Source: a virus. Taken from it: a stretch of DNA of 21,055 nucleotides. The first letter of the stretch is position 1. Each line of letters opens with the position of its first letter. This document shows positions 1 to 16,907 of the stretch, piece by piece. Made by a program: the position numbers and the translations under genes. The notes beneath the pieces were generated by a model, which ran no database searches, was not told where the DNA came from, and was given only the letters and a program-made list of their open reading frames with translations. The stretch spans positions 1 through 21,055 of the IMG/VR virus record IMGVR_UViG_3300025141_009337; one strand, 5' to 3'.

Positions 1-2726
1 CAGAGGGTCGCAATCCAGCAGGGATCCGTTGTCTCCGGATGAGGTGTGTAATGATCCATGTTATCAATAAACTCACACCCAGATCCAAACCAGTTATAAA
101 AAACGCCGGAAACAGCAGCGGGACTGATCCCAAACTTAAAATCCACTAAATCAATGTCAACATCCGAATTATCAATCGCCCGAACACACATACCTCCCGT
201 AGTACCAGAGACATGATTGGCAATCTGAGCGTCTCCAGTCCCGGAAAGTAACCCCACACTCCTGTCTGTAGTAAGCAAATAATCTGCCTGAATCACAGAG
301 CTGAAATCTCCGTTATAAGGAGTAGTCTCGCTCCCTAAACGAGCATTTTGAGTATAACCATTCGGGAAAAACATGGCATAACCACCTTTGGTACGCTCAT
401 GAAATAACGACAAGGGCTGCCTGGGGGTCTCCGTAGAAGATGCAGTTGAGGAAGCCCCCAACCCATACAAACTTATTTTAGATTCGTCGTGCCCCACTAA
501 ACAAGCACGAGTAGAATGAAGCTCAACTTTAGAATGGTTTGCAGACGAATCTAATCCATACTTCTGCGCATCTTTAATAGAGCCAATCCCTCCCGTTTTA
601 GGAGGTCCGAAATAAGCTTGAGAGGATTCCTGAGCCAGGACATCCACCCCGACTCTAGAAATTTTGGTAGGGCCATGAAAATCAACTCTAGAATTGTTAA
701 AAACTATAAAGGCGACTGAGCACCAATTTCTTTGTAGCCTGCCAAGAGAACTAAGCGACTGGTATGAGGTGATTGTGGTCCACCGCATGTCCCCAAAACT
801 AATAAATTGAAAACTAGAGTTATTCTCTGCGTAACCACAAGCCCCCTTCGAAGTTACGATCCCGTCAAAGATGTATCCAAGCCCAACAAGCGTAACATTA
901 GAATTGTTTACCGCCACCAGGGCTGGGGATTTGACGGACGCCGCCGAAACCTGCATCCCATGATTCCTCATAAGATAATTCGAAGAGACGGTGGTATCAC
1001 CAGCGGAAAGAATAGTGTTACCACCCCACATTCCTAGAGCTGAATATTCTGATACATCTTGCTGGATTTCAACAGTAGAGTTATTTTCTACTTTTAGATT
1101 TATTCCGTTGAAATCACAATGAAACATGGGCGCATTAAAAGAACCCCCACTAAAGCCGCCCAGAGCATTAATCTCATCTGCGTATTTGCCGTAGGATAAG
1201 ATAGAATTATCTAAAAGAAATCCCTCATTTTGATTATCATTTACACTGAATTGAGGAGTTACTATTCGTGAGTTTGTAGCTTCAATACCACGCAAATTTA
1301 AAAAAGAATTTAAGCGGCCGTCAAAATCTACTAAACTATTTTCTAATTTAAACCCCGCATTATTTCGGGAGCATTGGAGATGCGAGGTAAGTGTATCTGA
1401 ATCTCCAGCATTCTTAGTATAGGCCGTCGTTCTAAGAGTGTTCCGCGCACCTCCTCCTACAAAGGAATTTACAGCATGAATACCCGTGTCGCATGATCCG
1501 GTGATGTATCGACTATAACGTCCACTATCATTTGAAGCGCTTGTATCAAAAACCAAAATGGAATCTTGAAGGTATATTCCTATGCCACGAGCGGAGCCCA
1601 CAGTATATGAAGCGTTCTCCTGGGTATAAATTCTATAAACCACTAAAGATTTAGTAGAAGCTACTGTAGAATTAATAGCAAGAATTCCTGTCGAGGAGCA
1701 GCGACTAATAGCAACATCTTCTAGAAGAACGTCCGAATTTTCTACAGTTAGTCCATTTTCAGAACCATAACTAACATGGTAAGTAATACCGAAGCCATCG
1801 TCCACACCAATCGCAACTGCGGAGTCTATACACACTCCTTTCAATTTTACCTTATTGCAGTCCTTTATTGTGATGTCAGTAAAGTTTGCTCCAAACCCAA
1901 GGATACTAGCTTTATCCGCCGGTACAGGATCTTGTCTTCCCCAAATTAAAGATACCCCATCGGTTTGGTTCACAGGAATAATATCATAAGGTATACTAGG
2001 ATCATAAGTTGTATCATTAACATACCACATGGAACTTACATTATTGCCAGCAGATGACAGTGTGTAGCTGGGTCCCGCAGCGCCACTTCTAGCGTCAGCA
2101 AACGAAAGGGCCATCGTTTCTTTTTGAGAATCCGGGGATCTCTGCGAGTAAACGAGGGCATTCGAATTCCAGGATGTATTGCTGTAAGTGTTGTCGGAAG
2201 TCCTAGTAGAAGTTGCTGTGGATATATCGTATAAAAAAGAGGAGGTAGTAACTTTGTCTATATAGGAAACGGAAGGGCTCTCGGGTCCCACACCAACTGA
2301 CGATACGATTGCGCTAACATCAGAAGCATAATTTAAAAGGCCAATCTGTAAGGCTCCAGTACCCTCACACTTTATACCAACTATACTAAGGGAACCCAAT
2401 GAACCGTAGGAGGCAACCTCAATAACAACGGGGTAGGTCAACACACGAGGAAGATCATCGACAGCTGCCTGAGTGCTGCTGTATACACCATTAGCCGGGT
2501 CATGCACAGACGAGACGCAGAGCGTAACTCCGGAATAGCCAGAGGATCCAGGGAAACCTACACCCTGGGCGAGATAGAGGTCCCGGAGTTCCATCCCCGA
2601 AGAACCTTTGTTATCATAAGTATAATTATAATACGTGCTAGGATCAAAATGAAATGCAAGGGGATACCCTGACACTATTACGTCGGTGCCTCCAGTTACA
2701 TCATAATATTCATAAACACGACTCAT
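1..2726 (-). CDS. Parallel beta-helix tail fibre/tailspike-like protein B (3' end outside window)
   Basis: The frame opens at ATG 2726 and stays open to the left edge, giving 908 visible residues; the C-terminus lies outside. The start overlaps the TAA of the preceding gene as TAATG. The protein begins MSRVYEYYDVTGG and is collinear with the neighbouring 1,248-residue protein: shared features are the N-terminal YEY-DVTGG element, SGVTL-VS near residue 65, CEGTG-LQI near 120, a block with FGPP, NH-KV and LHSTRACLV near 705-750, and TGGMCVRA followed by FGSGCE near 840-885. Between these run many short strands punctuated by N-N-S or D-N-S turns, the look of a right-handed parallel beta-helix. 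Such proteins in phage tails bind or cut host surface polysaccharides; no catalytic residues can be assigned here. The beta-helix and paralogy are seen in the sequence; the receptor-binding role is inferred from fold and position after the baseplate genes. Confidence 0.82.
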   Translation of the reverse strand, partial: MSRVYEYYDVTGGTDVIVSGYPLAFHFDPSTYYNYTYDNKGSSGMELRDLYLAQGVGFPGSSGYSGVTLCVSSVHDPANGVYSSTQAAVDDLPRVLTYPVVIEVASYGSLGSLSIVGIKCEGTGALQIGLLNYASDVSAIVSSVGVGPESPSVSYIDKVTTSSFLYDISTATSTRTSDNTYSNTSWNSNALVYSQRSPDSQKETMALSFADARSGAAGPSYTLSSAGNNVSSMWYVNDTTYDPSIPYDIIPVNQTDGVSLIWGRQDPVPADKASILGFGANFTDITIKDCNKVKLKGVCIDSAVAIGVDDGFGITYHVSYGSENGLTVENSDVLLEDVAISRCSSTGILAINSTVASTKSLVVYRIYTQENASYTVGSARGIGIYLQDSILVFDTSASNDSGRYSRYITGSCDTGIHAVNSFVGGGARNTLRTTAYTKNAGDSDTLTSHLQCSRNNAGFKLENSLVDFDGRLNSFLNLRGIEATNSRIVTPQFSVNDNQNEGFLLDNSILSYGKYADEINALGGFSGGSFNAPMFHCDFNGINLKVENNSTVEIQQDVSEYSALGMWGGNTILSAGDTTVSSNYLMRNHGMQVSAASVKSPALVAVNNSNVTLVGLGYIFDGIVTSKGACGYAENNSSFQFISFGDMRWTTITSYQSLSSLGRLQRNWCSVAFIVFNNSRVDFHGPTKISRVGVDVLAQESSQAYFGPPKTGGIGSIKDAQKYGLDSSANHSKVELHSTRACLVGHDESKISLYGLGASSTASSTETPRQPLSLFHERTKGGYAMFFPNGYTQNARLGSETTPYNGDFSSVIQADYLLTTDRSVGLLSGTGDAQIANHVSGTTGGMCVRAIDNSDVDIDLVDFKFGISPAAVSGVFYNWFGSGCEFIDNMDHYTPHPETTDPCWIATL

Positions 2727-5700
2727 TACAATAATCTATCAAGATCAAACATATTAAGAGATTTCACGCCAACGCCATAAGTCGGGTTATCCCCCGTAAG
2801 AGAATCACGACCTTCGCCACCTTCCAACCCACGAGTGTTTGAACGATAAATGGATAACAAGTTAACTTTTTTATTAGCAGCGTGCCGTGCGTTGGCAAAA
2901 ACGCTAACCGCAGATTCGTCTAACCAGTTCCTCAAATAGCCCTGCCAATCTAAATGAATGGGAGGCACAGCAAACTGCGGGTGGAGTTGACCCATGTCCC
3001 AAAGCATTCCTATTCCCTCTACCATGGAAGCGTGTGTTATCATACCATTTATCTTACCGGGAGCGTTCGCCATACCTGCTAAGCCTCGCCCAAACACGGG
3101 TTCAGTCCCGGGTGACGCCCCTCCTTCTAGCCCAACATGTCGCGTAACATCCTGAGCGCCGCTGACTGCGATAGCGGCATCATACATGGTTTGGTATCCC
3201 TGCGCGCCAGCCTGATCCAGGGGAGAACCACCCCCATAATATTGAGATGTTATAGGGTTACCCGCCCAGTCAACCTCTCCATACATTTTCAAATATCCAC
3301 GGTGGGATCCGAGAATACGAAAAATACCAAGATTATAAAATTTATCAGGAGTTCTGTGCTGAGTAAGACTACTCGCATCAAAAGCATCCGCCGCTAAGCC
3401 ATACCTACCATAATAATCACAAGCCGCACCATTCTTCCACCGACCCGTAGGCCCGTGGTAGGGGGCTGTAACGCAAGCAGATACGGGGTCTGAACCATTA
3501 ATAAGCAAGTTCGCCGCATGCAGCCTGGAGGTATCCGCTATATTCCACATATGGATCTGCGTTCCCACGCATGCGAACTCCTGTGGGGGAGCAGGACATG
3601 GGGGTACTTGACCCTCTTCCTCAGCGTAAATTCCCTCGTCGAACATATGGGGAGTGGGGGGAGTAGGCAGTGACGTGTAGGGGGTTGTTGTAGAGGTAGT
3701 TGTAGTCGTAGTCGTAGACGTAGTCGTAGTCGGAGTCGTAACCGTAATTGTTGTAGTCGAAGTGGGTATAGGGGTAGTGGGTATAGGAGCACAACACGTA
3801 GAGGGAATTAAGTCGCATATATCAGTTGTGGGGGAGGTACACACGCCAGAAGTGGCGTTCCCATCCCACTCACACCCAGTTCCAAAATAATTATAAACTA
3901 CACCCGACACATCCTCACTATCCAACGCACATTTGAAATTAACAAGATTAACATTAATTTTACTATTACCTACAGCACGAACGCACATTCCACCTGTTGT
4001 TCCAAGTGGATGATTGGAATCGAGCGCTAATGCCATCATCGAACGAGTAAACAAATCCAAATTAGTAGCTTCTACTTCTGAAGTCCCGGCTGCATTTTCT
4101 GTAAATCCATTTGGGAAAAAGCGAACAAAGCTCCCAGAAGTAGCCGAGGTAAAGGCATCATAAATAGCGCTAGTTCCCGTTCCTGATGTCGCTACAATGT
4201 CCACCGAGTAGACGTCATCTAGTGCGGAGCCCCCTAGAGATACCATGTCAATAGTTGATTTATTATTAGCAACTAGACACGCACGAGTTGAATGCAAATC
4301 AACTTTCGTATGATTTCCAGCATTAGAAAGATCATATTTACTCGATTCGGGAACCCAACTATTAGACTCCTTCGAGGGTGGACCAAACAATGCATGAGAA
4401 TTATTATCTGCTAAGACACATATACCATACCGCCCAATCTTTGTAGGTCCCGTGAACGTAATATTTGAATTGTCGATAGCCGCTGTCGCCGCTGAAGTCC
4501 AATTCTTCTTAAGATTATATGCACCTAACTCACCATACGACCCAATGCTGGTAGTCGCGCTAAGCGTCCCACGAAACACCACACTAGAATTCTTAGAGGC
4601 AAGCGCACATGCCCCCACCGTACCTTGTATGACCGCCCTGCCCGCAAACCCTAGATTAGTTAATTCAACATTAGAATTATCTGAGGCAACAATAGCAGGC
4701 GATGCCGCTACGGAAATGCCATCATAAATCCCGTGTGAAGCCATGGCAAGCTTGTTGATTGCGTTTTGGCTCGTGCCCGACCACGAACCGCCCCACCATC
4801 CTAACTTAGGGATGGAACTGCAATCCTCCACAGGAGCAACGAGAGACCCGTTGTCAGCATAAATATTAGTCCCGTTTAGGTCACTCGTAAAAGTAGGTTT
4901 TGGTTTTGCCGCACCTGTCGTTGCTGACAGACTTCCTGGCAACGTGTAAAAGCTCCCGTAACGCAAAACTGATTTAGACAATCCAAACCCAGACTCTTGG
5001 TTAGCATCGACGCTAAACTGTATTAATGTTAACGATGAGTCTCTAGCATCTATAGCCTCTAAATTACAGTAGACCTCTGGTCTTCCCTCATAATCTACTA
5101 CAGAATTATCCAACAGAATACCAGTATTACTATTGGCCACGTAGAGTTTAGTTGTTTCAGTATCTAAACCACCAGCGTTTTTAGGATAAGTTGTTGACGC
5201 TACGCTGCTCTTAGCTCCTCCGGTAATTCTGGAATTAATTGCATGAATTCCTATACCACATTTTGAAATGGAAGTTAAATATTTCCCTCCCCGCGTGTAG
5301 GCGCTCGTATCAAAAGCAATACTAGAGTCTGCGAGATAAAGCCCAACGCCCTCGGAAGGACGGGTGCCATCTAGTTTGCGCTCATAAATTCTATTAATTA
5401 CAAAAGATTGAGCGGTGTTTATCACCGAGTCCTGAGCATAGACTCCAACTTTATTAACCCTACTGACTGCAACATTCTCTAATAAAATATTAGAATTCCT
5501 AACATCAATTCCTCTATCACACAGATACTGAATCTTATTAGGGTAAATAGAGTCTGATCCAGACGCGGAATCTACGCATATATTTTGTAATTTAACCCGG
5601 GAACAATTTACTATTTTAATCTTTCTAAAGTAAGCCCCATAAGCTGCCACGGTTATAAGGTCATCAACAGCCAGCACTTCCCGTTCTTCAATTAAACTTA

Positions 5701-6472
5701 GGCCAATACCCCCCTCCATCCTAGGATGTACATCATCTAATACCGTAGACTCATCACTCGCGTTATAGTTGTAACTTCCAAAAGCGGCAGCGCTCAGAAA
5801 GAGAGAGCCGTTAGGTCGGGGGAACGGAGCAAACCCCAGTGTTTGCGGTTCGTCTTGCGAATCTGGGGCTTTCTGGTAGTATAGCCTACAGTATCTCTCC
5901 CAGGGCTGATCTGCGGAGCAGTTAACCGCCAACTTCGTGGAGGAAACCTCCTTAATCATTGAACTCAACACAGTCGATGAGAAAGACGTGGGGAGAGTCT
6001 GTGAAGCAGAAGGTCCATAAGCGGATGCAGCCAGGACGCTTGAGACAGTCCCAGAAGTGTGTTGGCCAAACTGACGGCATGCAATCTGGAGACCTCCAGT
6101 CCCTTCACACTGAATATCAGAAATTTCTAACTCCCCCAGATCCCCAAAATCTAATATTTCAATAAGTAACGGGAATCTCAACCTTCGTGGAACTATTTCT
6201 AGAGCTTTCTGAACTGTAGGAAAAATACCAGATTCAGCAGCTTCAGCAAGGGCTCCTGCTGAGACGGTCAGAGTCACCCCCGATAACGCAGCCCCCAGCC
6301 CCAGGTACTGCCGTATAACATCTGAACGCGTGGTTAGATCATCAATTGGAAGATTATCTTGTTCCCAGTTATAAAAAGAAGTCGCATCATATTGGTGGAC
6401 TGCTGGGAACGCGTACCCTGAGAGGGTCTGCCCTCCTCCGGTAACATCAAAGTATTCATAAAGGCGTGCCAT
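2726..6472 (-). CDS. Parallel beta-helix tail fibre/tailspike-like protein A with Thr-rich linker
   Basis: This 1,248-residue protein starts at ATG 6472 in a TAATG overlap with the preceding gene. Residues 1-130 form an N-terminal region shared with the next gene (MARLYEYFDVTGG; SGVTLTVS; QCEGTGGLQI at 121-130), the probable anchor to the baseplate. Residues about 280-875 are a long beta-helix with repeated N-S or D-N-S turns followed by alternating hydrophobic strands. Residues about 830-895 contain several Cys, including a CC pair. Residues about 894-940 are a Thr/Pro/Ser linker, and about 940-1248 form a separate, non-repetitive domain with further Cys and Gly/Trp/Tyr-rich stretches, which I do not recognise. 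The layout anchor, beta-helix stalk, flexible linker, tip domain suggests a receptor-binding or polysaccharide-binding protein. No enzyme active site is identifiable. Function is inferred from fold and context. Confidence 0.82.
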   Translation of the reverse strand: MARLYEYFDVTGGGQTLSGYAFPAVHQYDATSFYNWEQDNLPIDDLTTRSDVIRQYLGLGAALSGVTLTVSAGALAEAAESGIFPTVQKALEIVPRRLRFPLLIEILDFGDLGELEISDIQCEGTGGLQIACRQFGQHTSGTVSSVLAASAYGPSASQTLPTSFSSTVLSSMIKEVSSTKLAVNCSADQPWERYCRLYYQKAPDSQDEPQTLGFAPFPRPNGSLFLSAAAFGSYNYNASDESTVLDDVHPRMEGGIGLSLIEEREVLAVDDLITVAAYGAYFRKIKIVNCSRVKLQNICVDSASGSDSIYPNKIQYLCDRGIDVRNSNILLENVAVSRVNKVGVYAQDSVINTAQSFVINRIYERKLDGTRPSEGVGLYLADSSIAFDTSAYTRGGKYLTSISKCGIGIHAINSRITGGAKSSVASTTYPKNAGGLDTETTKLYVANSNTGILLDNSVVDYEGRPEVYCNLEAIDARDSSLTLIQFSVDANQESGFGLSKSVLRYGSFYTLPGSLSATTGAAKPKPTFTSDLNGTNIYADNGSLVAPVEDCSSIPKLGWWGGSWSGTSQNAINKLAMASHGIYDGISVAASPAIVASDNSNVELTNLGFAGRAVIQGTVGACALASKNSSVVFRGTLSATTSIGSYGELGAYNLKKNWTSAATAAIDNSNITFTGPTKIGRYGICVLADNNSHALFGPPSKESNSWVPESSKYDLSNAGNHTKVDLHSTRACLVANNKSTIDMVSLGGSALDDVYSVDIVATSGTGTSAIYDAFTSATSGSFVRFFPNGFTENAAGTSEVEATNLDLFTRSMMALALDSNHPLGTTGGMCVRAVGNSKINVNLVNFKCALDSEDVSGVVYNYFGTGCEWDGNATSGVCTSPTTDICDLIPSTCCAPIPTTPIPTSTTTITVTTPTTTTSTTTTTTTSTTTPYTSLPTPPTPHMFDEGIYAEEEGQVPPCPAPPQEFACVGTQIHMWNIADTSRLHAANLLINGSDPVSACVTAPYHGPTGRWKNGAACDYYGRYGLAADAFDASSLTQHRTPDKFYNLGIFRILGSHRGYLKMYGEVDWAGNPITSQYYGGGSPLDQAGAQGYQTMYDAAIAVSGAQDVTRHVGLEGGASPGTEPVFGRGLAGMANAPGKINGMITHASMVEGIGMLWDMGQLHPQFAVPPIHLDWQGYLRNWLDESAVSVFANARHAANKKVNLLSIYRSNTRGLEGGEGRDSLTGDNPTYGVGVKSLNMFDLDRLL
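3640..3795 (-). repeat. Thr-rich linker with in-phase hexanucleotide repeats
   Basis: Within beta-helix protein A the coding strand becomes a run of Thr codons (mainly ACT/ACG/ACA) with scattered Pro and Ser. The core, 3696-3749, is nine consecutive hexamers in phase. Four are exact gtagtc on the plus strand (3702, 3708, 3720, 3726); the others are gtagtt, gtagac, ggagtc, gtaacc and gtaatt. Most hexamers encode a Thr-Thr pair, so gain or loss of a unit would keep the frame and only change linker length. The protein segment is mucin-like, probably extended and flexible between the beta-helix and the C-terminal domain. Confidence 0.85.
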
Positions 6473-7059
6473 TAAAACTCAATTGTCCATTTGAATAAAA
6501 CTGAGAAGCTAGTAGCTTTGGTGAGTGGTGTGAAATATCTATATGCACACAACAAGCTAGTCTCCGGAGATGCTGTTCCTATAGGATTTTTACTGAATAA
6601 CCCAATTTCATCAAGCTCCACGCCGTCGCAGGCGTTGTCCCCTAGAAAAATATTATACATAACCCTAGTAGGACTGATTTTATTTATGTATGGGAAAGGA
6701 ATTACTCCAAAAACCTTGTTCGTATGGGTAGTGGTACTAGACAGGTAATTGTGAGTATCTAATTCAAAATTAGCAGTCCCATAATCCACTTCCGCTAACT
6801 CACCTCCTAAAGCTCCAGTTGTGGATACCTGTAGTCCTACGCTCCCCCCGGACCCGCACTGGAAGTATATAATTTGGAACGCATCAACAGCACTGGCCGA
6901 GCCCGTGCCACCCTTAAAAGCATTAAGGAGCGTTTTTCCCATTCCAGATGTAATTATATTTTCATCCGAAAAGTGTATTTCTTCCCTGCCATCGGGATAA
7001 ACCTTAATCACCTCAAGGTATCCTTTTACATCATTACTATAATCTAACAATTTTTCCAT
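6472..7059 (-). CDS. Small tail/baseplate protein with ends matching the 1,238-aa neighbour
   Basis: Encodes 195 residues from ATG 7059, eight bases after the TAA of the preceding gene. A GTG at 7092 would add 11 residues but overlaps the upstream gene by 25 bases and has no clear ribosome binding site; neither start has a good one. Near the N-terminus is DG-EEIHFSDENIITSG (about 23-39), then a helix-like stretch, then a strand ending QCGSGG. The C-terminus has DEIGLFSKN, LLCAYRYFTPL and ends in a strand FSVLFKWTIEF. The neighbouring 1,238-residue protein has comparable elements at its two ends (SIEFSD...NLIVEG; VGLW...RIKWKVIF). No known family was named with certainty. Position between wedge and beta-helix genes suggests a baseplate-peripheral or fibre-adaptor protein; this is inference. 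Confidence 0.7.
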   Translation of the reverse strand: MEKLLDYSNDVKGYLEVIKVYPDGREEIHFSDENIITSGMGKTLLNAFKGGTGSASAVDAFQIIYFQCGSGGSVGLQVSTTGALGGELAEVDYGTANFELDTHNYLSSTTTHTNKVFGVIPFPYINKISPTRVMYNIFLGDNACDGVELDEIGLFSKNPIGTASPETSLLCAYRYFTPLTKATSFSVLFKWTIEF

Positions 7060-7067
7060 GGCTCTTT

Positions 7068-10000
7068 TTACGGTAAGAATATAACCTTCCACTTAATGCG
7101 TATAGCGCCGCCCCCACCAATGGAAACCGGAGTCCGAAAGACTTTCTTTGAAAACAATTTATACACCAAATTCCTATCAGAATCGTTCACATTATATAGA
7201 TTGCCAGTCCTGGGGCCCGGACTATCGTATAGCGCCGTCACGTCATAACCACCCGTGTGCAAACTATCGTATGTCTTCTCCACATCTAAAACCCATAACC
7301 CTACAGCTCCAATACCCCCCTGAAAATCAAAAAATGTTATATCGTCGGATCCAATATCAAACCAATACGTAACCGAGCTTACGTTTGAAGACGCTTGAAA
7401 GCCCGAAAGTGCTAAGCCTCCATTATCAACTACTGGCCGTCCTGTACCCGTTACAGGGTACATCATCCCGTCTGAATTAATGACGGCGAATTTATTAGCC
7501 GAGCCCTCCAATGAATCACCGCTCAAAGTAATTCCTGAACCAGCCAACCATCCTCCATCTGCATGGGCTCTATCCTCACTAATACCGGACAAGGATGATC
7601 CAATGTAACTGGGCCAATTAATGTAATTAACATACTGACCGAGCAATCCAGCCGAACCAGATACCACAGGCTGAAGAGTTCTATCAAGCGGGGACGGGAA
7701 AACAGGTAAATCCTTTACTGGGTAAGGAGATATCCTGTAAAATTCCCAGTCCTTAACAGCAGTTATGTTGGATGCGTCCCAATCCGTTTTTGATGCCTGG
7801 GAGATAGCAAATCTTATTTTAGTAGTGGGTGTAAATCTAGCGTCAGTCAGTAACACCTTAGTACTGAATATTCTCTTTATATTTTTATCCTCATCCGTTG
7901 CCATGAATCCTCTTCTAAACGTATAAGAAAAATCATTGTAAGGCACAGAAGCCCCCTCAAAGGCTTCCTCATATGGCTTCCAACCAGAAGGAGCGTCCGC
8001 ATCCCAATATAGAAGGTCTCCACTGTCCAGTTGAGCCAGAGCGGTCCATAAAGTTTCGGGCTTCCCCCCAGAGTCATCCTCCATCTGTTGATATTTGAGA
8101 CTGAACGCAATCTCAGTAGAGCTTACCGGGAGAACAACATCCCCTACCTTAAAGGTGCGACAAAGCTCAATGGGGGCTCGTGTAGCCACCACGGGGGCAT
8201 TATACGTTCCGAGTAAAAATCCAGTAGACTCATCCCAGAGGCTCCACCCTCCTGAGGTTGGCGAGATGGGTGTCACGCCAGGAAAAAGAGAAGAGTAAGA
8301 GGTTCCAATATTACTAACATCATTAAAATATTGAACGGTAGGACTCCCCTCCAATTCAAAACGAGGTACAGGTAGGTATGATTCAGAAGTCCAAACATCA
8401 TCTCCAACTGGGAGTGTGTAAGGCATAAGACCAACATCACAGATGGCAGCACAGGATATCCTCTGAAAACCCCCTGTCGCTAAATTATTATTCCGTGTAT
8501 TAAAAACAACAAGTTGATACTCCGTTTCAGAAGTATGTGTACTACCTGATGCTAAATTCATACTATCCAAACAATTTAAACCCCACCCATTTATCCCCGT
8601 AGCGCTCTTTGTCTCAGTATACTCAGTAGTGGAAATACCACTAAGAACGTATTGACCAGAGTAAGTTGAAGGTTGAACAGTCCACCGCGAGGGTCCCGTC
8701 AGAGCACTCCATGAAAAATACTCATGTATATCTTCCGCGTACGTTTTCGCATAAGAATCCATTCGTAAGTTTTTAATGAAAGCGGGAGCAGCTGTCTCAT
8801 TATGAATTTTAAGAATCAAGGAAAAGGCCGTACCAGTTGTCCCCGTGGTCGAGGGTACAAGACCTAACAAGAGATTAGAATTAACTAATGGAGTACTTCT
8901 AAATGAGGCATATTCTTCGGAGCCTGTCGAAACTGAACTTGTAAAAAACTTATTTCTGTCCGGGATGCTTGCCCCCGCTGGAAGAGAGTTCCAATCCCCG
9001 ATAGTAAAATCAAAATACCTATGATTACCGGAGGAATCTATTCCAGAAGTATGTAAAGTAAAATACACATCGGATCCAGAGACCCCAGAAATGTCTCTAA
9101 ATTTTTTCAATATCGCCCCTTCAAAAACGGCGGGTTTATTTAAAGGCAACTCAAAGAGCCCGCTCAGAGTAGAGGATGTGACTACCTCCAAACAAAGTTC
9201 AGACGGTTTTGGTTTAAGGGAATTAGCTAACTTTAAGGCATGCTGTGGATTTGTTACCCAAGGAATTGTGCTATTTATACGGGGGCTCGCGGCTACGGAC
9301 GCTCCCAAATTACTTTCGATTAAATCAGAAGCAGATGCATACGTTAAATAATTATATTTGCCAATCTTCTTAGATTGGGAAGTAGACTTCTTAAGTACAC
9401 CAACATCTAAATAGTGATCGATAGCCGTGGCTCCCCCCATAAGCCCTCCGAAAATAAATCCTCCATATTTCTTAAGAGGACTCATAGAAAACACTTGAGA
9501 CAAATAGCTAACGCTACTAAGTGGAAGCGCACTTCCTTTTGTACCCCCAGATCCACTGGTTGTCATGAACACACCCGGGTCTGTGTAATCTCCACCAACA
9601 ACCCGGAACATGGAGTCGTTAGGTGCTAAGTTACCATACAACCACCCATCCATAAAGGAAACACCGGCATCCCAAAAATAACATTCAAGGATGTCACTAT
9701 TGTCATGTGAAGCGAATTGATACGTTAGTTCCAGCTTATGAGACATTCGTGTATTTGTAATATTAACAAAGAACGATATGCACGAGGAAGTATCCTTACT
9801 CGCATCAAATACTAGAGGAAACCCAGTAAAGTTCCACTCATGCCGATCCCCAGAAAAATCATACCTCTCACCCGTAGTCTTGTCTTGTAAGTAAACTAAA
9901 ATACAAGCATCCGCACCTCCTGAAATAGAATGATATTTTGCAGAAATCTCTGCCAATGAACCTAAAGATTCATCGTAGCGGACTTGTGGACTCCTGCCCG

Positions 10001-10784
10001 ACACGTAAGGAACAAACTGCTGGGAAAGGTTAACCGCTCCTGACGTAGTTCCCTCGTCGCTGGGCGAGAAGGATCTAACGTAAAGGACCCCATCGTCTGG
10101 TTCCGCATACCCAGCGGATACAATGCTTGAAACAGTAGAGACATCCTTAATATCATGCCGAGCTAAAGAGCCATAGCGGGGGGTCGCACTATACTCAGTT
10201 AATTTATTCACATACCGCAGAGTACTTCTAATGTCCCACTGAGACAACTCATACAATCCAAGAACAATATTTAAATGGACTCCAGTCAAACTATCATCAA
10301 TACTATAGTCTCTAAATTTAGAGTTAGATAAAACATTGGTAACGCTAGAAAATGTTGGATTTTGAATAACGCTGTTAGGATACTTTGAGCCTGAGACCCC
10401 CCCATTAATACTAGAAAATGAGAAATTTGGAAAATCAGGAAGATAAGACCAAGCCGTTCCATCAGAAGGATCCAAATCCACAAAACCTACTCCAGGACTA
10501 CCCGTAACTTGATACCCTGATACAGCAGCAAGTGCCTGACATCTCAAAAAAGCAGATTTGTTTGGTGACACTGAAGTCCCATGAACAATAAAATTAGAAA
10601 CATCGTACAGAGAAGACACGCTAGATAAAATTGAGGAGGGGGAAGGAATCCAGGTTAACATGTCCACTATATGTTCTTTGGCCCCTTCAACAATCAAATT
10701 ATTATCTACATGTATAGGGGTATCTGAAAACTCAATTGAGTCTCCTCTGCAAAATCCCTGGTATACTTCTACACTTCCCCTCAT
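7068..10784 (-). CDS. Large beta-rich structural protein of unknown family, probable baseplate/tail component
   Basis: A 1,238-residue protein starting at ATG 10784, one base after the TGA of the gpI-domain gene (TGACATG), so translation is probably coupled. Composition is rich in Ser, Gly, Thr, Tyr and Asp with few Lys clusters, and strands alternate with loops over most of its length; no signal peptide or membrane segment is seen apart from a short Gly-rich hydrophobic patch (GGFIFGGLMGG near residue 460). Residues 1-75 (SIEFSD, NNLIVEGAKEHI, FIVHGTS) and the last 80 (YWFDIGSDD, VGLW, FRTPVSIGGGG, RIKWKVIF) resemble the corresponding ends of the small gene that follows. The roughly 1,000 residues between are unassigned and could hold several jelly-roll or fibre-like domains. 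A structural role is inferred from size, composition and location; I do not recognise a family. Confidence 0.72.
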   Translation of the reverse strand: MRGSVEVYQGFCRGDSIEFSDTPIHVDNNLIVEGAKEHIVDMLTWIPSPSSILSSVSSLYDVSNFIVHGTSVSPNKSAFLRCQALAAVSGYQVTGSPGVGFVDLDPSDGTAWSYLPDFPNFSFSSINGGVSGSKYPNSVIQNPTFSSVTNVLSNSKFRDYSIDDSLTGVHLNIVLGLYELSQWDIRSTLRYVNKLTEYSATPRYGSLARHDIKDVSTVSSIVSAGYAEPDDGVLYVRSFSPSDEGTTSGAVNLSQQFVPYVSGRSPQVRYDESLGSLAEISAKYHSISGGADACILVYLQDKTTGERYDFSGDRHEWNFTGFPLVFDASKDTSSCISFFVNITNTRMSHKLELTYQFASHDNSDILECYFWDAGVSFMDGWLYGNLAPNDSMFRVVGGDYTDPGVFMTTSGSGGTKGSALPLSSVSYLSQVFSMSPLKKYGGFIFGGLMGGATAIDHYLDVGVLKKSTSQSKKIGKYNYLTYASASDLIESNLGASVAASPRINSTIPWVTNPQHALKLANSLKPKPSELCLEVVTSSTLSGLFELPLNKPAVFEGAILKKFRDISGVSGSDVYFTLHTSGIDSSGNHRYFDFTIGDWNSLPAGASIPDRNKFFTSSVSTGSEEYASFRSTPLVNSNLLLGLVPSTTGTTGTAFSLILKIHNETAAPAFIKNLRMDSYAKTYAEDIHEYFSWSALTGPSRWTVQPSTYSGQYVLSGISTTEYTETKSATGINGWGLNCLDSMNLASGSTHTSETEYQLVVFNTRNNNLATGGFQRISCAAICDVGLMPYTLPVGDDVWTSESYLPVPRFELEGSPTVQYFNDVSNIGTSYSSLFPGVTPISPTSGGWSLWDESTGFLLGTYNAPVVATRAPIELCRTFKVGDVVLPVSSTEIAFSLKYQQMEDDSGGKPETLWTALAQLDSGDLLYWDADAPSGWKPYEEAFEGASVPYNDFSYTFRRGFMATDEDKNIKRIFSTKVLLTDARFTPTTKIRFAISQASKTDWDASNITAVKDWEFYRISPYPVKDLPVFPSPLDRTLQPVVSGSAGLLGQYVNYINWPSYIGSSLSGISEDRAHADGGWLAGSGITLSGDSLEGSANKFAVINSDGMMYPVTGTGRPVVDNGGLALSGFQASSNVSSVTYWFDIGSDDITFFDFQGGIGAVGLWVLDVEKTYDSLHTGGYDVTALYDSPGPRTGNLYNVNDSDRNLVYKLFSKKVFRTPVSIGGGGAIRIKWKVIFLP

Positions 10785-10785
10785 G

Positions 10786-13700
10786 TCAATTACTCACAGA
10801 AAATTCCATCACGGTAACACTATCAATTATAGAAGATGAGGAATACGTAGCCCCACCTAACAGTTCCACATACTCAGCTCTGCTCCCCCCAAGTGTTTCA
10901 AAATAGGGCGCTGAGTAAGTTGCATTACGAGATAAAGACCCACTTACTAAACCATCCCAGAACTTATAAATCTCATAAATCTCTGGACTAGTGAAATGTC
11001 GCATCATGTTGTTTAAGCCTGTATCGACTATAGAAATTTCATAAAGATTAATACCGTCCTCTACGATACCACCTGATACGCGGCTCGGAGTCGCGCCTTT
11101 AACTTTTAAAACATACTCAGTAGCAGATGTGTGAACATCCCCCTCAAAGATAGCTCCGCTACACGGAACATATTTATCGGTCGAATCCTCTAATGTATTA
11201 AAATCAACCGAACAAACATTAGGACATTCTAGACCAGCATCTGCGCACAATTTATTTTTAAATAAACTAGCTTTTGAATCATCATATACACGCCACCTAT
11301 TGTCATACCAATCATATGCCCAGGTCATTGCATCTGAGGATGAGGGGGTAATAAATAATTCAACCTCTAATTCTTGATCGAAAGTATTGGTAGCAGTTCG
11401 TAAAATAAAATCAGCCCTAAATTTAGATTGAGGCCGCAATTTATTGTAAGTGATCTCGCCTATCAAAGAGGGTTTAAACGGTATAGCCACCTCAAGCCCC
11501 TCTCCATATATTCCGAGAGAATAGGCAGTTATAGAATTATACTCAGAAAATCCAGACTTTTCATTGGCAACAATAAAGGCTTTACTCCCCGAGTCAAGTT
11601 GTCTAATCTCAAGCCCTGATAAAATTTCATTAGTCTTTTTTATAGACTTATTTGCCTCATCAACAGTGCTTATAACACCTGACAGAGCGGACAGAGACGA
11701 AGCATCAGGGGCATCGGAAAAATAAGTTTTACTATTTAATGTAATAGCACTCCCCCCATAATTTAAATACTTCTGCCCGCCCGCATTTTGAGCACCTACA
11801 ATGTAGCGCCATTCAGCCAGATACCCGTAATTAGGACTCGTCTGCCCCGGCAGAATATCTCCGGGGGCCAAAGCATTTTGTGTTATCTTTCCTTTATAAC
11901 GAAAATCACTGTTCCAAAAAGTAGGACCAAAAGCATAAGATATAAAATTATGACCGCCATAAAAAGGAACACCTGGCGAAACCGTGTTTTTCAGAACCCC
12001 GCTAAATTCATCATTGTAAATATCATACCCCTGATGAACCGATTTACCAAAAGAATACTTTTTATAATCTGCATCACTAAACAATAAACTACTAGAATCA
12101 GGGGCTTCACGAATCTTTGCACGAGTCATAACCTTCATAATAGTTTTCAAGTCACCGCGCCTGCGCGGCACGGAACTACAATCTTGCACATCGTCTGGGA
12201 CCACCCGCATCGGGTAGGTGTTAGACAGGTCAAACTCACCTGAGTCCCCGCTAACAGCACAATCATTCCCTGATATCCAAAAGCCGCTAAGACCCCATAC
12301 AGAGGAAGACATATCCAAGTATCTCTGACGTGCGTAATCAAAACCTTTTATAATATATTCAGAAGTATTTAAATACCCGTTAGCCGTCACAGCAGTCGCA
12401 TCACACCCCGGAACAATTCGAAAATGATTTAACGCGACGGGCATCGCAGTGCCCTCCCGACCAAGAGGGTAACACGGCAACGCATATCTATAATCTCTAC
12501 GCCTAGACGTATTTCTATCTAAATCTGACGCGCTAGCATTCCAAAATAAAGATGTAACCGAACTAACATAAACGGGCAAAACTCTCCCATCACCGTTAAC
12601 ATAAATAGGACTCAAATCCCCAGTACCGCTTGCGCCTGCCCAAAAATTGGCTCTCTTAGAATTCAGATATCCAGTATTATAATCATCTATACATTCCTCT
12701 GCAATTACACATAAGTTGGATATCGCGCAATGAGTATCTTCTAAATCCAAATATAAAACTATTCTAGCAACAACATGTAACGGAATAAACTCTCGCAATA
12801 CATCTCGATAAACTTCTAAAGCAGCTTTGTTTCTAAATGTATCATAACCATCTACAGTATAATCAAAGGAAGAAGCGGCGAGGACCGAAAATACATGGGA
12901 TGATTTAGTATTCCATAGATCAAAATCTGCCACTTCATCTGTGTTACCAAACTTAACATACTTTGCATAATTGGGGGGCAGCTCATGAGCACTGGTAAAG
13001 AAGAGGAACTTATCATTGACGGACCACGTTGGGGGTCCCGTTAAGGAGAAGACGCTCTTTATTGCGGTATTTACTAAGGTCTTGAATGACCCCACGTAGG
13101 AGGCATTAATCTCAAATCCAAAACTCTCTCTTGTCCCAGACAAGATTTTACATATCTCATCAACTTCTTTATCCGTAAGAAATGATTCTCTATAAAATCC
13201 ATATTTTTCCCAAGGAGGAACCATAACTGTGAGAGGTTTCATAGAAGGAACACCTACAGCACTGAGACTGGCAGTCGTGATAGCTTTCGGGTCATTCGGA
13301 TGATTTCTGTGATAAAAGCCAGTCCCTGAGAGACACGTCCACATAGGCAGTTGACGAAAATCCCGACCTCTAAGTTTAATTACCTTATATTTATTGTGAA
13401 CGTATTGTAGAATAGCATCTACGAGAAATCTGTAATTTCTATCTTTAGCATCTGCGTATGTCGGACCAACTTGGTTGAATTTAATACCGGGGGCCACGTC
13501 CTTAAACGTGCTGCTGAAAAGAGGTTGAAACTCCAAACCATCTTTAGCAATGTAAGATTCAGTTTTGATAAGGTAGTATAATAAATTCGGAAGATAACAT
13601 TCCCATGTCTCAGAAATATCATTTATAGAAAATAGGCCGTCCGGGAAAACTAACTTTAGAACTGCGTCTAGACCCACAATGCTTCCTTTAGTTTTGTATA

Positions 13701-14790
13701 CCATTACCGCATTCGCAAGTTGCGCACGCCATTTATCGTAATCCCCCGTGAGATATCGCCATCCAATATTGTTTGCAAGAAGTTCCAGGAATCTTTCCGG
13801 GCACTCATCTATACTGAGCAAGTCGCTAATTTCTTCTAGAATAAGATTAATATCCGCAACACCCAAACTAATAGCTTTTAGGAATCGTTGGAAAGATCCT
13901 GCATCCCTCATAACACTAGGGTAAGGCCCCATAGAAGCAGTATTTACCCAATCCCCGATAACAGTTTCCAAAGACCCCGTTAAGAATTCATGATTTTTAA
14001 GACGCGCGTCCGTCCATGTATTAAGATGAAGCAACACAGAATTCAACAACTGGGTCCCAGAAGCATACGTATTGGCAGATATAGAAGCAGACCCGCTAGC
14101 AAACGCCGTGGGTATAAAACCTTTATAGAAAGTACTCTCCTCCCTATTGTGCCAAAAATATTTAAACAATAGACCAATAGCATCCCCATCTGTAGCGACT
14201 TGTCCACTGTTGAGGCCCCCTACTAAAGCTTCTGTTAATAGGGAAGATGCATATGCAGAAGCTTGGGTAGAGGATAAAGCAGAAGTGTTCATGAAATAAA
14301 ACATCCCCAGTGTTTCTATCAAATATTCATGAGTCAGCAGAAGGCTGCTATAAGGATACGTGGGCGTGTCTGGGGCCGATGACTTCCCTCCACTAATTCC
14401 CGACATGATAGCAAAAAATCCAGAAGGGTTGTTTAGTTCAGCATCTGGGAGGAATGTGGCCGATACAAAAGTATATAAATCTGATATACTGCTAAAAGAC
14501 TCGAAAGTTAAACCATAGGGCGCTAAAATTTTGCCAGCAAAAGTATTGGGGCTAATTATAGTTTTTTTATTAGCGGGATCAAAAAACAAAGCCACTGATG
14601 ATTTGTCTAAAGTACTGACATCAAAAAACAGGTCATTCTGCACCGCAGCTTTTATAATTCTTCCCGCAAAATCTAGACTGATATCCTCCTCTGACCCAAA
14701 TTGGTAATAATCTACTGACCGGTAAAATTCCGGAACAAACTTATTAACTACGTCAATGTAATTGTATTTTGTTGTAGAGGAAAAAGCCAT
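10786..14790 (-). CDS. gpI-domain baseplate protein, probable T4 gp7 counterpart
   Basis: A 1,334-residue protein starting at ATG 14790, overlapping the gpJ/gp6-like stop by one base (TAATG). Residues about 315-400 match the phage tail protein I type (P2 gpI / tail-protein domain): a helix ISDLLSIDECPERFLELLA, then NNIGW, then a WRAQLANAV-MVYKTKGS helix leading into GLDAVLKLVF. In contractile tails the J and I products form the wedge that surrounds the hub and joins it to the fibres; in T4 this pair is gp6 and gp7. The order 25-6-7 seen here supports that reading. The N-terminal 300 residues are mostly helical; the 900 residues after the gpI region are beta-rich and unrecognised. It is far longer than stand-alone gpI proteins (about 200 residues) and longer than T4 gp7 (about 1,030). 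Direct homology to gp7 beyond the gpI region is not shown. Confidence 0.82.
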   Translation of the reverse strand: MAFSSTTKYNYIDVVNKFVPEFYRSVDYYQFGSEEDISLDFAGRIIKAAVQNDLFFDVSTLDKSSVALFFDPANKKTIISPNTFAGKILAPYGLTFESFSSISDLYTFVSATFLPDAELNNPSGFFAIMSGISGGKSSAPDTPTYPYSSLLLTHEYLIETLGMFYFMNTSALSSTQASAYASSLLTEALVGGLNSGQVATDGDAIGLLFKYFWHNREESTFYKGFIPTAFASGSASISANTYASGTQLLNSVLLHLNTWTDARLKNHEFLTGSLETVIGDWVNTASMGPYPSVMRDAGSFQRFLKAISLGVADINLILEEISDLLSIDECPERFLELLANNIGWRYLTGDYDKWRAQLANAVMVYKTKGSIVGLDAVLKLVFPDGLFSINDISETWECYLPNLLYYLIKTESYIAKDGLEFQPLFSSTFKDVAPGIKFNQVGPTYADAKDRNYRFLVDAILQYVHNKYKVIKLRGRDFRQLPMWTCLSGTGFYHRNHPNDPKAITTASLSAVGVPSMKPLTVMVPPWEKYGFYRESFLTDKEVDEICKILSGTRESFGFEINASYVGSFKTLVNTAIKSVFSLTGPPTWSVNDKFLFFTSAHELPPNYAKYVKFGNTDEVADFDLWNTKSSHVFSVLAASSFDYTVDGYDTFRNKAALEVYRDVLREFIPLHVVARIVLYLDLEDTHCAISNLCVIAEECIDDYNTGYLNSKRANFWAGASGTGDLSPIYVNGDGRVLPVYVSSVTSLFWNASASDLDRNTSRRRDYRYALPCYPLGREGTAMPVALNHFRIVPGCDATAVTANGYLNTSEYIIKGFDYARQRYLDMSSSVWGLSGFWISGNDCAVSGDSGEFDLSNTYPMRVVPDDVQDCSSVPRRRGDLKTIMKVMTRAKIREAPDSSSLLFSDADYKKYSFGKSVHQGYDIYNDEFSGVLKNTVSPGVPFYGGHNFISYAFGPTFWNSDFRYKGKITQNALAPGDILPGQTSPNYGYLAEWRYIVGAQNAGGQKYLNYGGSAITLNSKTYFSDAPDASSLSALSGVISTVDEANKSIKKTNEILSGLEIRQLDSGSKAFIVANEKSGFSEYNSITAYSLGIYGEGLEVAIPFKPSLIGEITYNKLRPQSKFRADFILRTATNTFDQELEVELFITPSSSDAMTWAYDWYDNRWRVYDDSKASLFKNKLCADAGLECPNVCSVDFNTLEDSTDKYVPCSGAIFEGDVHTSATEYVLKVKGATPSRVSGGIVEDGINLYEISIVDTGLNNMMRHFTSPEIYEIYKFWDGLVSGSLSRNATYSAPYFETLGGSRAEYVELLGGATYSSSSIIDSVTVMEFSVSN

Positions 14791-16466
14791 TAAACAAATT
14801 TTATAGTCAAATCAACATTATTCAGTTGCAAAATTTCATTAAAATCCACGTAGATATCATTCTCGTAATTATCAATACTTAAAAATCTTACACCCGCATC
14901 CTTGAGCAAGAAATTTTGTAATTTAGAAAGATTCAATGGCATTCCAAAATCCATGAGATTAGTAGAAAAAAATGAATAAATATTGTTGGCTACCCTTTGC
15001 TTAATATTATCCGCACTCAATTTTTGAACTTTATCCACATACAAAGTGCATTTCATATCTAAGGTTCTCACAATGCCATCAACAACGGTTATTTCATCCG
15101 TAAGCATTCTATACTTATTCAAATATTCTAAAAGTTCCTTTTTAAATTCAAAAGACGCTCTTTCCAAATGATCCGCTGTGGCTTGTTGCAGGACATAAAT
15201 ATCAATCATATTTCCTGCACTTCCATTATCACGCAACGTAGCAAGAGCCTTTCCAGTTTTCCCAGCAGTGCTTATAAATTTATGTGCAAATGTAGTATAG
15301 TCATGACCGGTTACGGCACGATATTGGGTAGCAAACCACATCGGACCAAATCTCCGTGCCTCTTCAATAGACTGCGCGTCTACCCCTCCAGTTCCAGCCC
15401 GAGGGTTTGTAACATCCAGAGTTACATCCGTAGGAGATACGCTTCTCACTCCAGTAGAAGCCTTACTTAATTTCCCAGAGGTAACGTTCCCTCTCAAGCC
15501 ACCCCCCGTCCGGAACATTATTACATAGTCTTGGTTTGGTGTGGGTGTCTTCCCTACCGCGCCGCGTCCAAACTTAAGCCTACAAGAAAAATCCTCATTA
15601 TAGATTTTCTCAAAAACAAAAGCCTCGGCAGATGCAAACCATATATTATCAATTTCAGTATAAAAACCATCCCCCGCTGAAACTACAACACTTCCTTCAA
15701 TTACCGATGGCAGAGTAATAGAAATTTCCTCAGCGGGATCTATATGAGAAAAAGTACCTGTCTGGGTTTGAAAGCTGCCTTCTAGTAATACAAGATTTTC
15801 AAACGTAGATCCGTCATAATCAGCAGGTGCCGGATTCCCGGTAGGCTTTGAATCTTCAAACGTCAATACCATGGAATCTTCTTGCATATTGATATTACCA
15901 TTACTTTCCACGGAATACAAAGTATATGTTAGAGGTAGATTGTCCCTGGTACTGACACCTTGTATAACTCTATTTCCCGCATCAATTGTTATCTGCTGCC
16001 CTGTGGCAATAGCCCGTGAGGCGTCTGTTACAGTAGCAACGGCATTAGCCTTAGCCGATACGGGGCCTCTCAAGGAAACTCCAATAAGTTCTAATAATTT
16101 AGTAACACTTTCGGAGGTTTTGGCCGTAGCCAAATAATTCTCCTGAGCAATAGCATCGGCCTTATAAGAAAGGACCCCCCCGAGATATGCAACTAACTCT
16201 ACCAACATAATCCCTAAATCAGATTCTATAAAATTATTATAATTATCAGGATAGACTGCTTTTAAATAATTAGAAAAGCTTGTTTTAAAATCATCAAAAT
16301 CTGAAGTGGAAAAATCAATTAGGTCTTTTCTTAGAGCCTCGGGGATACCACCCAAGCGCATGAAATCAGAAGTAACCTGACCAGTAAATCCACTTGGATT
16401 ATAGATAGCCTCAAACTGAGGATTACTACCTGGTACTGCCTCTGGACCTTTGCTTATGTGTGCCAT
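14790..16466 (-). CDS. gp6: Baseplate wedge protein, gp6/gpJ family
   Basis: A 558-residue protein starting at ATG 16466 directly after the gp25 stop codon, with no gap. Family marks of Baseplate_J/gp6 are clear: the N-terminal helical stretch ESDLGIMLVELVAYLGG with LSYKADAIAQENYL (81-112) and LLELIGVSLRGP (124-135), the FGRGAVGKTP loop (299-308), GGGLRGNV (321-328), NPRAGTGG...SIEEARR (355-372) and RAVTGHDYT (383-391). In the virion this protein dimerises to form the inner ring of the baseplate wedge, bound to gp25 on one side and the gp7/gpI protein on the other. Length is close to T4 gp6 (about 660) and longer than P2 gpJ (about 300). No odd features; the upstream sequence is AT-rich without a clear ribosome binding site, so translation is probably coupled to gp25. 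Confidence 0.95.
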   Translation of the reverse strand: MAHISKGPEAVPGSNPQFEAIYNPSGFTGQVTSDFMRLGGIPEALRKDLIDFSTSDFDDFKTSFSNYLKAVYPDNYNNFIESDLGIMLVELVAYLGGVLSYKADAIAQENYLATAKTSESVTKLLELIGVSLRGPVSAKANAVATVTDASRAIATGQQITIDAGNRVIQGVSTRDNLPLTYTLYSVESNGNINMQEDSMVLTFEDSKPTGNPAPADYDGSTFENLVLLEGSFQTQTGTFSHIDPAEEISITLPSVIEGSVVVSAGDGFYTEIDNIWFASAEAFVFEKIYNEDFSCRLKFGRGAVGKTPTPNQDYVIMFRTGGGLRGNVTSGKLSKASTGVRSVSPTDVTLDVTNPRAGTGGVDAQSIEEARRFGPMWFATQYRAVTGHDYTTFAHKFISTAGKTGKALATLRDNGSAGNMIDIYVLQQATADHLERASFEFKKELLEYLNKYRMLTDEITVVDGIVRTLDMKCTLYVDKVQKLSADNIKQRVANNIYSFFSTNLMDFGMPLNLSKLQNFLLKDAGVRFLSIDNYENDIYVDFNEILQLNNVDLTIKFV

Positions 16467-16907
16467 TTATTTTATTAATATATTTTTTGTTGCGCCCACA
16501 GTCAAAAAAATACTCTCTGTGGTGAGGACATTATTCTTAAGCGAAAATACTAAAGATAAGTCGAGTTCTGAAGTTTCCTCATTGGGGATAAGTTTAAAAT
16601 CAATAATCGTCACTCTTGGCTCATACTTTTCAATAGCTGTCAAAATACTTTTTTCCAAAGCGCCAATTGTTATACCGTCCATTGGCTCAAAAGGTGCGGC
16701 ACGCAGATTGGTTCCATAACCAGGTCGCATAGGGCGTTCCCCCTTTTGAGTTAATATTAATTGTACAAGACCGTCTTTAACAGCTTCTTGGTTATAAGCA
16801 CACGAGAACATGCCACCAGTGTTTTCCTGCTTAACAGGCCATTGCACACCCCTAATAACCTTTTGGTTTTTGCGTGTAGCAAATTGTAAATCTCCATAAC
16901 TAGCCAT
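16467..16907 (-). CDS. gp25: Baseplate wedge / sheath initiator protein, gp25/gpW family
   Basis: A 146-residue protein with the signature of the GPW/gp25 family: GERPMRPGYGTNLR at 56-69, a helix IGALEKSILTAI, the YEPRV motif at 95-99, and a final pair of strands. In T4 and P2 the gp25/W product sits at the top of the wedge, carries the handshake fold that starts sheath polymerisation, and couples baseplate change to sheath contraction. Length matches the family (about 130-150). The ATG at 16907 overlaps the TAA of the LamG gene by one base and has an AGGA at 16915-16918 on the complementary strand, seven bases upstream. It is followed immediately by the gp6/gpJ gene, the canonical neighbour. 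Confidence 0.95.
   Translation of the reverse strand: MASYGDLQFATRKNQKVIRGVQWPVKQENTGGMFSCAYNQEAVKDGLVQLILTQKGERPMRPGYGTNLRAAPFEPMDGITIGALEKSILTAIEKYEPRVTIIDFKLIPNEETSELDLSLVFSLKNNVLTTESIFLTVGATKNILIK

Follow-up and report, generated by a model that had tools for sequence, protein, structure and literature searches.

Two paralogous beta-helix proteins, probably tail-tip adhesins, encoded in tandem near the baseplate genes of an uncultured T4-like marine phage

Here we have shown that two adjacent giant genes of an uncultured virus, B and A, are paralogues. Members of their family follow the baseplate genes in over 250 contigs of uncultured phages. Both proteins are probably adhesins, similar to tailspikes or fibres, at the tail tip of a T4-like marine myovirus, whose virions would then carry two non-equivalent adhesins.

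Gene organization of the window

The window, which is the whole 21,055-base record of the uncultured virus, contains on its minus strand, in this order, genes for a gp25-like wedge protein, a gp6/J-like wedge protein, proteins of 1334, 1238 and 206 aa, B and A:

16467..16907, minus strand: gp25/gpW-like baseplate wedge protein (PF04965, E 2.8e-14)
14790..16466, minus strand: gp6/gpJ-like baseplate wedge protein (phrog_219, E 1.9e-34)
10786..14790, minus strand: 1334-aa gpI-like baseplate protein (Tail_P2_I)
7068..10784, minus strand: 1238-aa neighbour (ORF); the N-terminus of its family is homologous to that of the 206-aa family
6472..7092, minus strand: 206-aa conserved structural neighbour (phrog_5417), directly upstream of the family gene in relatives
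2726..6472, minus strand: B (copy 1), complete ORF of 1248 aa, beta-helix plus C-terminal domain, with full-length orthologues that are 52% identical
3..2726, minus strand: A (copy 2), open ORF of 908 aa, cut by the contig edge at the start of the Thr-rich linker; the orthologues in L026, L028 and L030 run on

A preliminary description of this DNA placed the pair directly after the wedge genes. The pair does lie in the same cluster, but three ORFs (1334, 1238 and 206 aa) intervene. The structural-gene neighbourhood that was also proposed is borne out by the profile matches of the wedge and baseplate genes and by the gene order in relatives, which is wedge, gpI-like protein, a protein of ~1200 aa, a protein of ~200 aa, family gene, VDNLPL protein, prohead protease, major head protein and sheath. 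The last three of these, located downstream in the contigs of the relatives, are of the T4 type, and the gene order places the beta-helix family gene between baseplate and head genes in more than 60 loci. The wedge protein is ~23-26% identical to phage wedge proteins, mostly from cyanophages, and its nearest relatives, encoded by an uncultured huge phage, cyanophages and other phages, all show less than 30% identity. The families of the 206-aa and 1238-aa proteins have a homologous N-terminal segment (family-level hhalign E 1.7e-10), and constitute another set of consecutive paralogues.

Region-by-region comparison of A and B

The minus-strand ORFs B and A are collinear, and their homology extends over the entire part that both have (36.5% identity over 903 aa, E 2.7e-163), in agreement with the two adjacent collinear giant genes of the preliminary description. 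The size of about 900 residues given there for both proteins had to be corrected: B has 1248 aa, and A is truncated where its linker and C-terminal part begin. The regions of the two proteins are the following:

6083..6472, minus strand: B N-terminal region, residues 1-130, the most conserved part within copy 1 (73%); 39% identical to A
6296..6415, minus strand: B N-terminal motif (SFYNWEQDNLPIDDL), residues 20-59, common to the protein after the pair in relatives
4007..6082, minus strand: B beta-helix coils, residues 131-822 (AlphaFold2 model)
4223..4492, minus strand: B late conserved block, residues 661-750 (FGPP...LHSTRACLV), 46% identical to A and 60% within copy 1
3869..4006, minus strand: B helix end block, residues 823-868 (GTTGGMCVRA...GCE), 59% identical to A and 67-72% within copies
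3557..3868, minus strand: B Cys/Thr-rich linker, residues 869-972 (104 aa, 31% Thr)
2729..3595, minus strand: B C-terminal domain, residues 960-1248, 25-71% identical across 54 relatives
3..71, minus strand: start of the A linker (FIDNMDHYTPHPETTDPCWIATL) at the contig end, aligned to the FIDSLDYYSELSQTTETCWIAKLCCEC-Thr-rich stretch in L026

Identity between A and B is 39% in the N-terminal residues 1-130, 25, 40 and 37% in the three coil thirds (residues 131-660), and 46, 33 and 59% in the late regions (661-750, 751-822 and 823-868, respectively). When B-type proteins are compared with single-copy relatives, the same seven regions give, in the same order, 40, 25, 29, 28, 45, 25 and 50%, and the A-B profile is therefore the rate profile of the whole family. 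Hence, the conserved islands named previously are present but are not specific to the pair, and the statement that the intervening coils differ strongly applies only to residues 131-300 and 751-822, residues 301-660 being as similar as the N-terminus.

N-terminal identity is 73% within copy 1, 66% within copy 2 and 43% between the copies of one genome; compared with single-copy relatives, it is 40% for copy 1 and 36% for copy 2. The view that both copies keep the same baseplate socket is not supported by this comparison, because the 43% between copies is close to the 40% and 36% found between phage lineages. The safe statement is that the sequences give no sign of a common socket constraining both copies. 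No gene conversion was seen, A-B identity within a genome being equal to that across genomes in every region. The ratio of between-copy to within-copy branches is 0.70-0.74 for residues 1-130 versus 0.26 for the rest (with 95% ranges, 0.72 (0.49-1.05) versus 0.26 (0.21-0.32)). A control split of two single-copy clades gave 0.68 versus 0.31; the effect is thus not specific to the duplication, and a duplication-specific divergence of the N-terminus was rejected.

Predicted beta-helix structure

Residues 1-885 of B, modelled with AlphaFold2 as a single chain, are predicted to form a right-handed parallel beta-helix (pLDDT 84.7, pTM 0.88), which is the long helix that had been proposed for the pair; A would have the same fold by homology. 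The best fold match to B with VIA is the receptor-binding protein of Staphylococcus phage Andhra (8egr_B; Z 22.3, 438 aligned, rmsd 3.5), gp15, which is a trimer (PMC9710869). Further VIA matches are CBA120 TSP2 (Z 19.4), the tailspikes of cyanophage Pam1 (Z 15.7) and Sf6 (Z 14.8), and phi29 gp12 (Z 14.2), and the list after the Andhra protein contains alginate lyase, viral and phage tailspike and pectinase-type helices. The Foldseek E-values support the beta-helix class, but the whole-protein TM-scores are low (at most 0.31 by query length). A predicted beta-helix is by itself no proof of adhesion, since enzymes with the same fold also rank high in the list; an active site was not identified.

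A Thr-rich linker and a conserved C-terminal domain

According to the preliminary description, the two proteins have the same helix cap. The cap block is indeed shared (59% between A and B), but the real C-terminus, which had been missed, consists of a linker and a separate conserved domain. The copy-2 orthologues in L026, L028 and L030 have 1303-1620 aa and pass the point at which A stops (..TTDPCWIATL), after which the orthologues have a CCxC element, a Thr/Ser-rich linker of 163-452 residues, the longest (452 aa) being that of copy 2 of L028, and the C-terminal domain. B is organized in the same way, its linker being shorter (104 aa). This domain of ~290 aa is conserved, as is the C-terminus of the family (SLNxFDLxRL). 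Its AlphaFold2 model has a pLDDT of 73 and a pTM of 0.74, and neither Foldseek nor VIA found a PDB counterpart above noise; the model being only moderately confident, a new fold is only a suggestion.

In six members of the clade (the window, L027, L029, L031, L033 and L045), the record stops at the Thr-rich linker or within it, and assembly thus apparently breaks at the Thr-rich repeat, hiding the C-terminal domain and the second copy. In the clade of L041, L048 and L050-L057, a Gly/Asp/Pro-rich linker of about 140-190 residues takes the place of the Thr-rich one, and the most distant clade has no linker at this position. The literature yielded nothing useful on Thr-rich phage linkers.

Copy number and age of the duplication

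The tandem pair was found in seven records only, six contigs and the window, which form one clade; a copy-2-specific scan returned the six contigs, two of which are near-identical. The next gene is visible for 72 family genes and encodes a second family member in six; in the other 66, the next protein has a NDPYYYEVDNLPL-type N-terminus (64 by pattern, 2 by eye). Among twelve long records, two copies are present only in the two of the close clade. At each of the six further copy-2 loci found, the gene adjoins copy 1 within a virion gene cluster, and these loci give no sign that homologues of the second gene are single-copy non-virion genes.

In the tree, the two copies separate into reciprocally monophyletic sister clades, both with 100% SH-aLRT, which implies that the duplication predates the clade, and is as old as had been suspected. 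A and B share common descent, as their homology shows, and belong to separate clades of the tree. L034 falls inside the copy-1 clade and has no copy 2, which is best read as a loss.

Distribution of variation

In the closest phage pair compared (L027 versus L045), copy 2 has no amino-acid changes in residues 1-120, 63 in residues of about 121-400, none in 400-599 and many again in the linker. On average, all regions are under purifying selection. The proximal coils are the fastest-evolving part, the highest dN/dS is that of the copy-2 coils (0.30), and the nonsynonymous share is larger in the copy-2 than in the copy-1 coils (Fisher p 0.007). The sharp edges of the copy-2 hot segment suggest recombination, which may account for this segment in the one phage pair; in that same pair, the pattern would also fit a surface under changing selection.

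A shared N-terminal motif in consecutive genes

Columns 26-65 of the family N-terminal profile match the N-terminus of the next protein (hhalign, 40 columns, probability 91%, E 1e-6), and the helix-family profile independently matches the next protein in L103 (E 2.5e-4). These matches support a short N-terminal element common to consecutive genes. The shared 40-residue motif is probably a docking element, and the baseplate would be the site to which it docks. The next protein starts with NDPYYYEVDNLPLxDL (L026 17592-19295, L093 13483-15999 and equivalents); no match to this VDNLPL-type protein was found in cultured phages.

Occurrence of the family

The family was opened by a two-row alignment of A and B, and by the wedge protein. 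The A+B alignment scan of IMG/VR confirmed 332 related loci, the best 80 of the 332 being kept, and a scan with copy-1 sequences confirmed 257 loci; A alone, used as query against IMG/VR, gave no match. Tblastn with five family members found no relative among 50,697 records of cultured phages, no relative was found among PDB sequences, and the PHROG and Pfam profiles gave no family match, beyond some isolated weak ones, when A, B, the C-terminal domain and ten distant relatives were compared with them. As far as our searches reach, the family, its C-terminal domain and the Thr-rich stalks are undescribed. One relative (L104) is located on a 130.6-kb contig (QCKN01000003.1) of the Prochlorococcus sp. 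AG-409-P03 single-cell genome. According to the paper on that data set (PMC6122165), virus-infected cells may be the source of some of its single-cell genomes; Prochlorococcus is thus only a hint at the host, and for the L104 branch alone. L104 also encodes (6477-9341) a 954-aa protein that starts like the 206-aa family and has an inserted stretch that by eye looks like an esterase-type hydrolase (GCHG, GFSNGG).

Discussion

If A and B are adhesins, as we consider probable, the N-terminal region with its SFYNWEQDN-PL-DL motif would dock to the baseplate, and the helix would project so that the fast-changing proximal coils meet the glycans of the host surface. The Thr-rich linker may be a flexible, possibly glycosylated stalk, and the C-terminal domain, conserved across lineages, would have a common job (oligomerisation, folding or a shared contact) and not determine host specificity. 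After the ancestral duplication, the copies would each have retained a conserved N-terminus of their own, and both remained in the genome, most simply as two non-equivalent adhesins of one virion. That a virion has two host-binding surfaces is plausible, and would be compatible with the fast-evolving coils.

The conservation of the C-terminal domain and the gene order in more than 60 loci would also fit a structural part of the baseplate. The family might thus be a component of the baseplate periphery, a connector or platform like T4 gp9-gp12, with copy 2 as a clade-specific extra subunit and specificity carried by the VDNLPL or another gene. Nearly all relatives have one copy at a constant position, which agrees with such a role, as do the conserved C-terminal domain and C-terminus (SLNxFDLxRL) and the N-terminal motif common to the next protein. 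Yet the proximal coils evolve fastest, copy 2 having a segment rich in amino-acid changes, and the top fold neighbour is a receptor-binding protein followed by tailspikes, so that we regard this role as unlikely, though deserving attention. Still less probable is that A and B build one hetero-oligomeric fibre, for instance of serially joined segments, instead of two independent spikes. The genes are always adjacent with overlapping stop and start, both are kept in the six contigs and the window, and their N-termini are copy-specific and strongly conserved, as such a fibre would have it; but neither copy has lost any part (both have a full N-terminus, a helix, a linker and a C-terminal domain), which is what two complete spikes would show, and L034 has copy 1 alone. 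That absence of copy 2 from L034, and its somewhat faster evolution, might point to a second copy that arose recently or is decaying, and has no role. This is already disfavoured and very improbable, given the deep split into sister clades, the open frames in all lineages, the overall dN/dS of 0.21 and the unchanged residues 1-120 between L027 and L045.

The reading as paralogous adhesins can be extended, in a form that we hold only tentatively and that is doubtful as a whole, to a large unnamed adhesin family of uncultured T4-like phages of the ocean. Its C-terminal domain would have a new fold, one clade would have long mucin-like Thr stalks, and consecutive proteins would use a common docking motif. 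Different fibres would then compete for, or tile, equivalent baseplate sites, and the duplication in one clade would have produced a two-spike virion. Many contigs of marine T4-like phages carry the family as a constant part; since neither cultured phages nor the PHROG and Pfam libraries have it, predictions of host binding for ocean viruses miss it.

Comparison with known systems

The window resembles T4-like cyanophages in its wedge protein (~23-26% identical) and, through its relatives, in the T4-type protease, capsid and sheath genes. It differs from their baseplate and fibre region in the beta-helix family, which has no match in 50,697 phage records (tblastn). Like B, Andhra gp15 (8EGR) and the phi29 gp12 appendage are parallel beta-helices over most of the chain. 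However, their identity to B in structural alignment is at most 14%, they belong to short-tailed phages, they do not have the Thr-rich linker and the C-terminal domain of the B family, and their trimers have been shown, whereas B is known from a single-chain prediction. The beta-helix tailspikes (the CBA120 TSP1-TSP4 cluster, P22, Sf6, Det7 and Pam1) have a fold like that of B, but no sequence relationship with A or B was detected, no endoglycosidase site was identified in A or B, and the conserved C-terminal domain of B has no fold match. Several paralogous spikes on one virion are known from CBA120 and Klebsiella phage K64-1, and the multi-spike concept to which A and B would conform is therefore not new.
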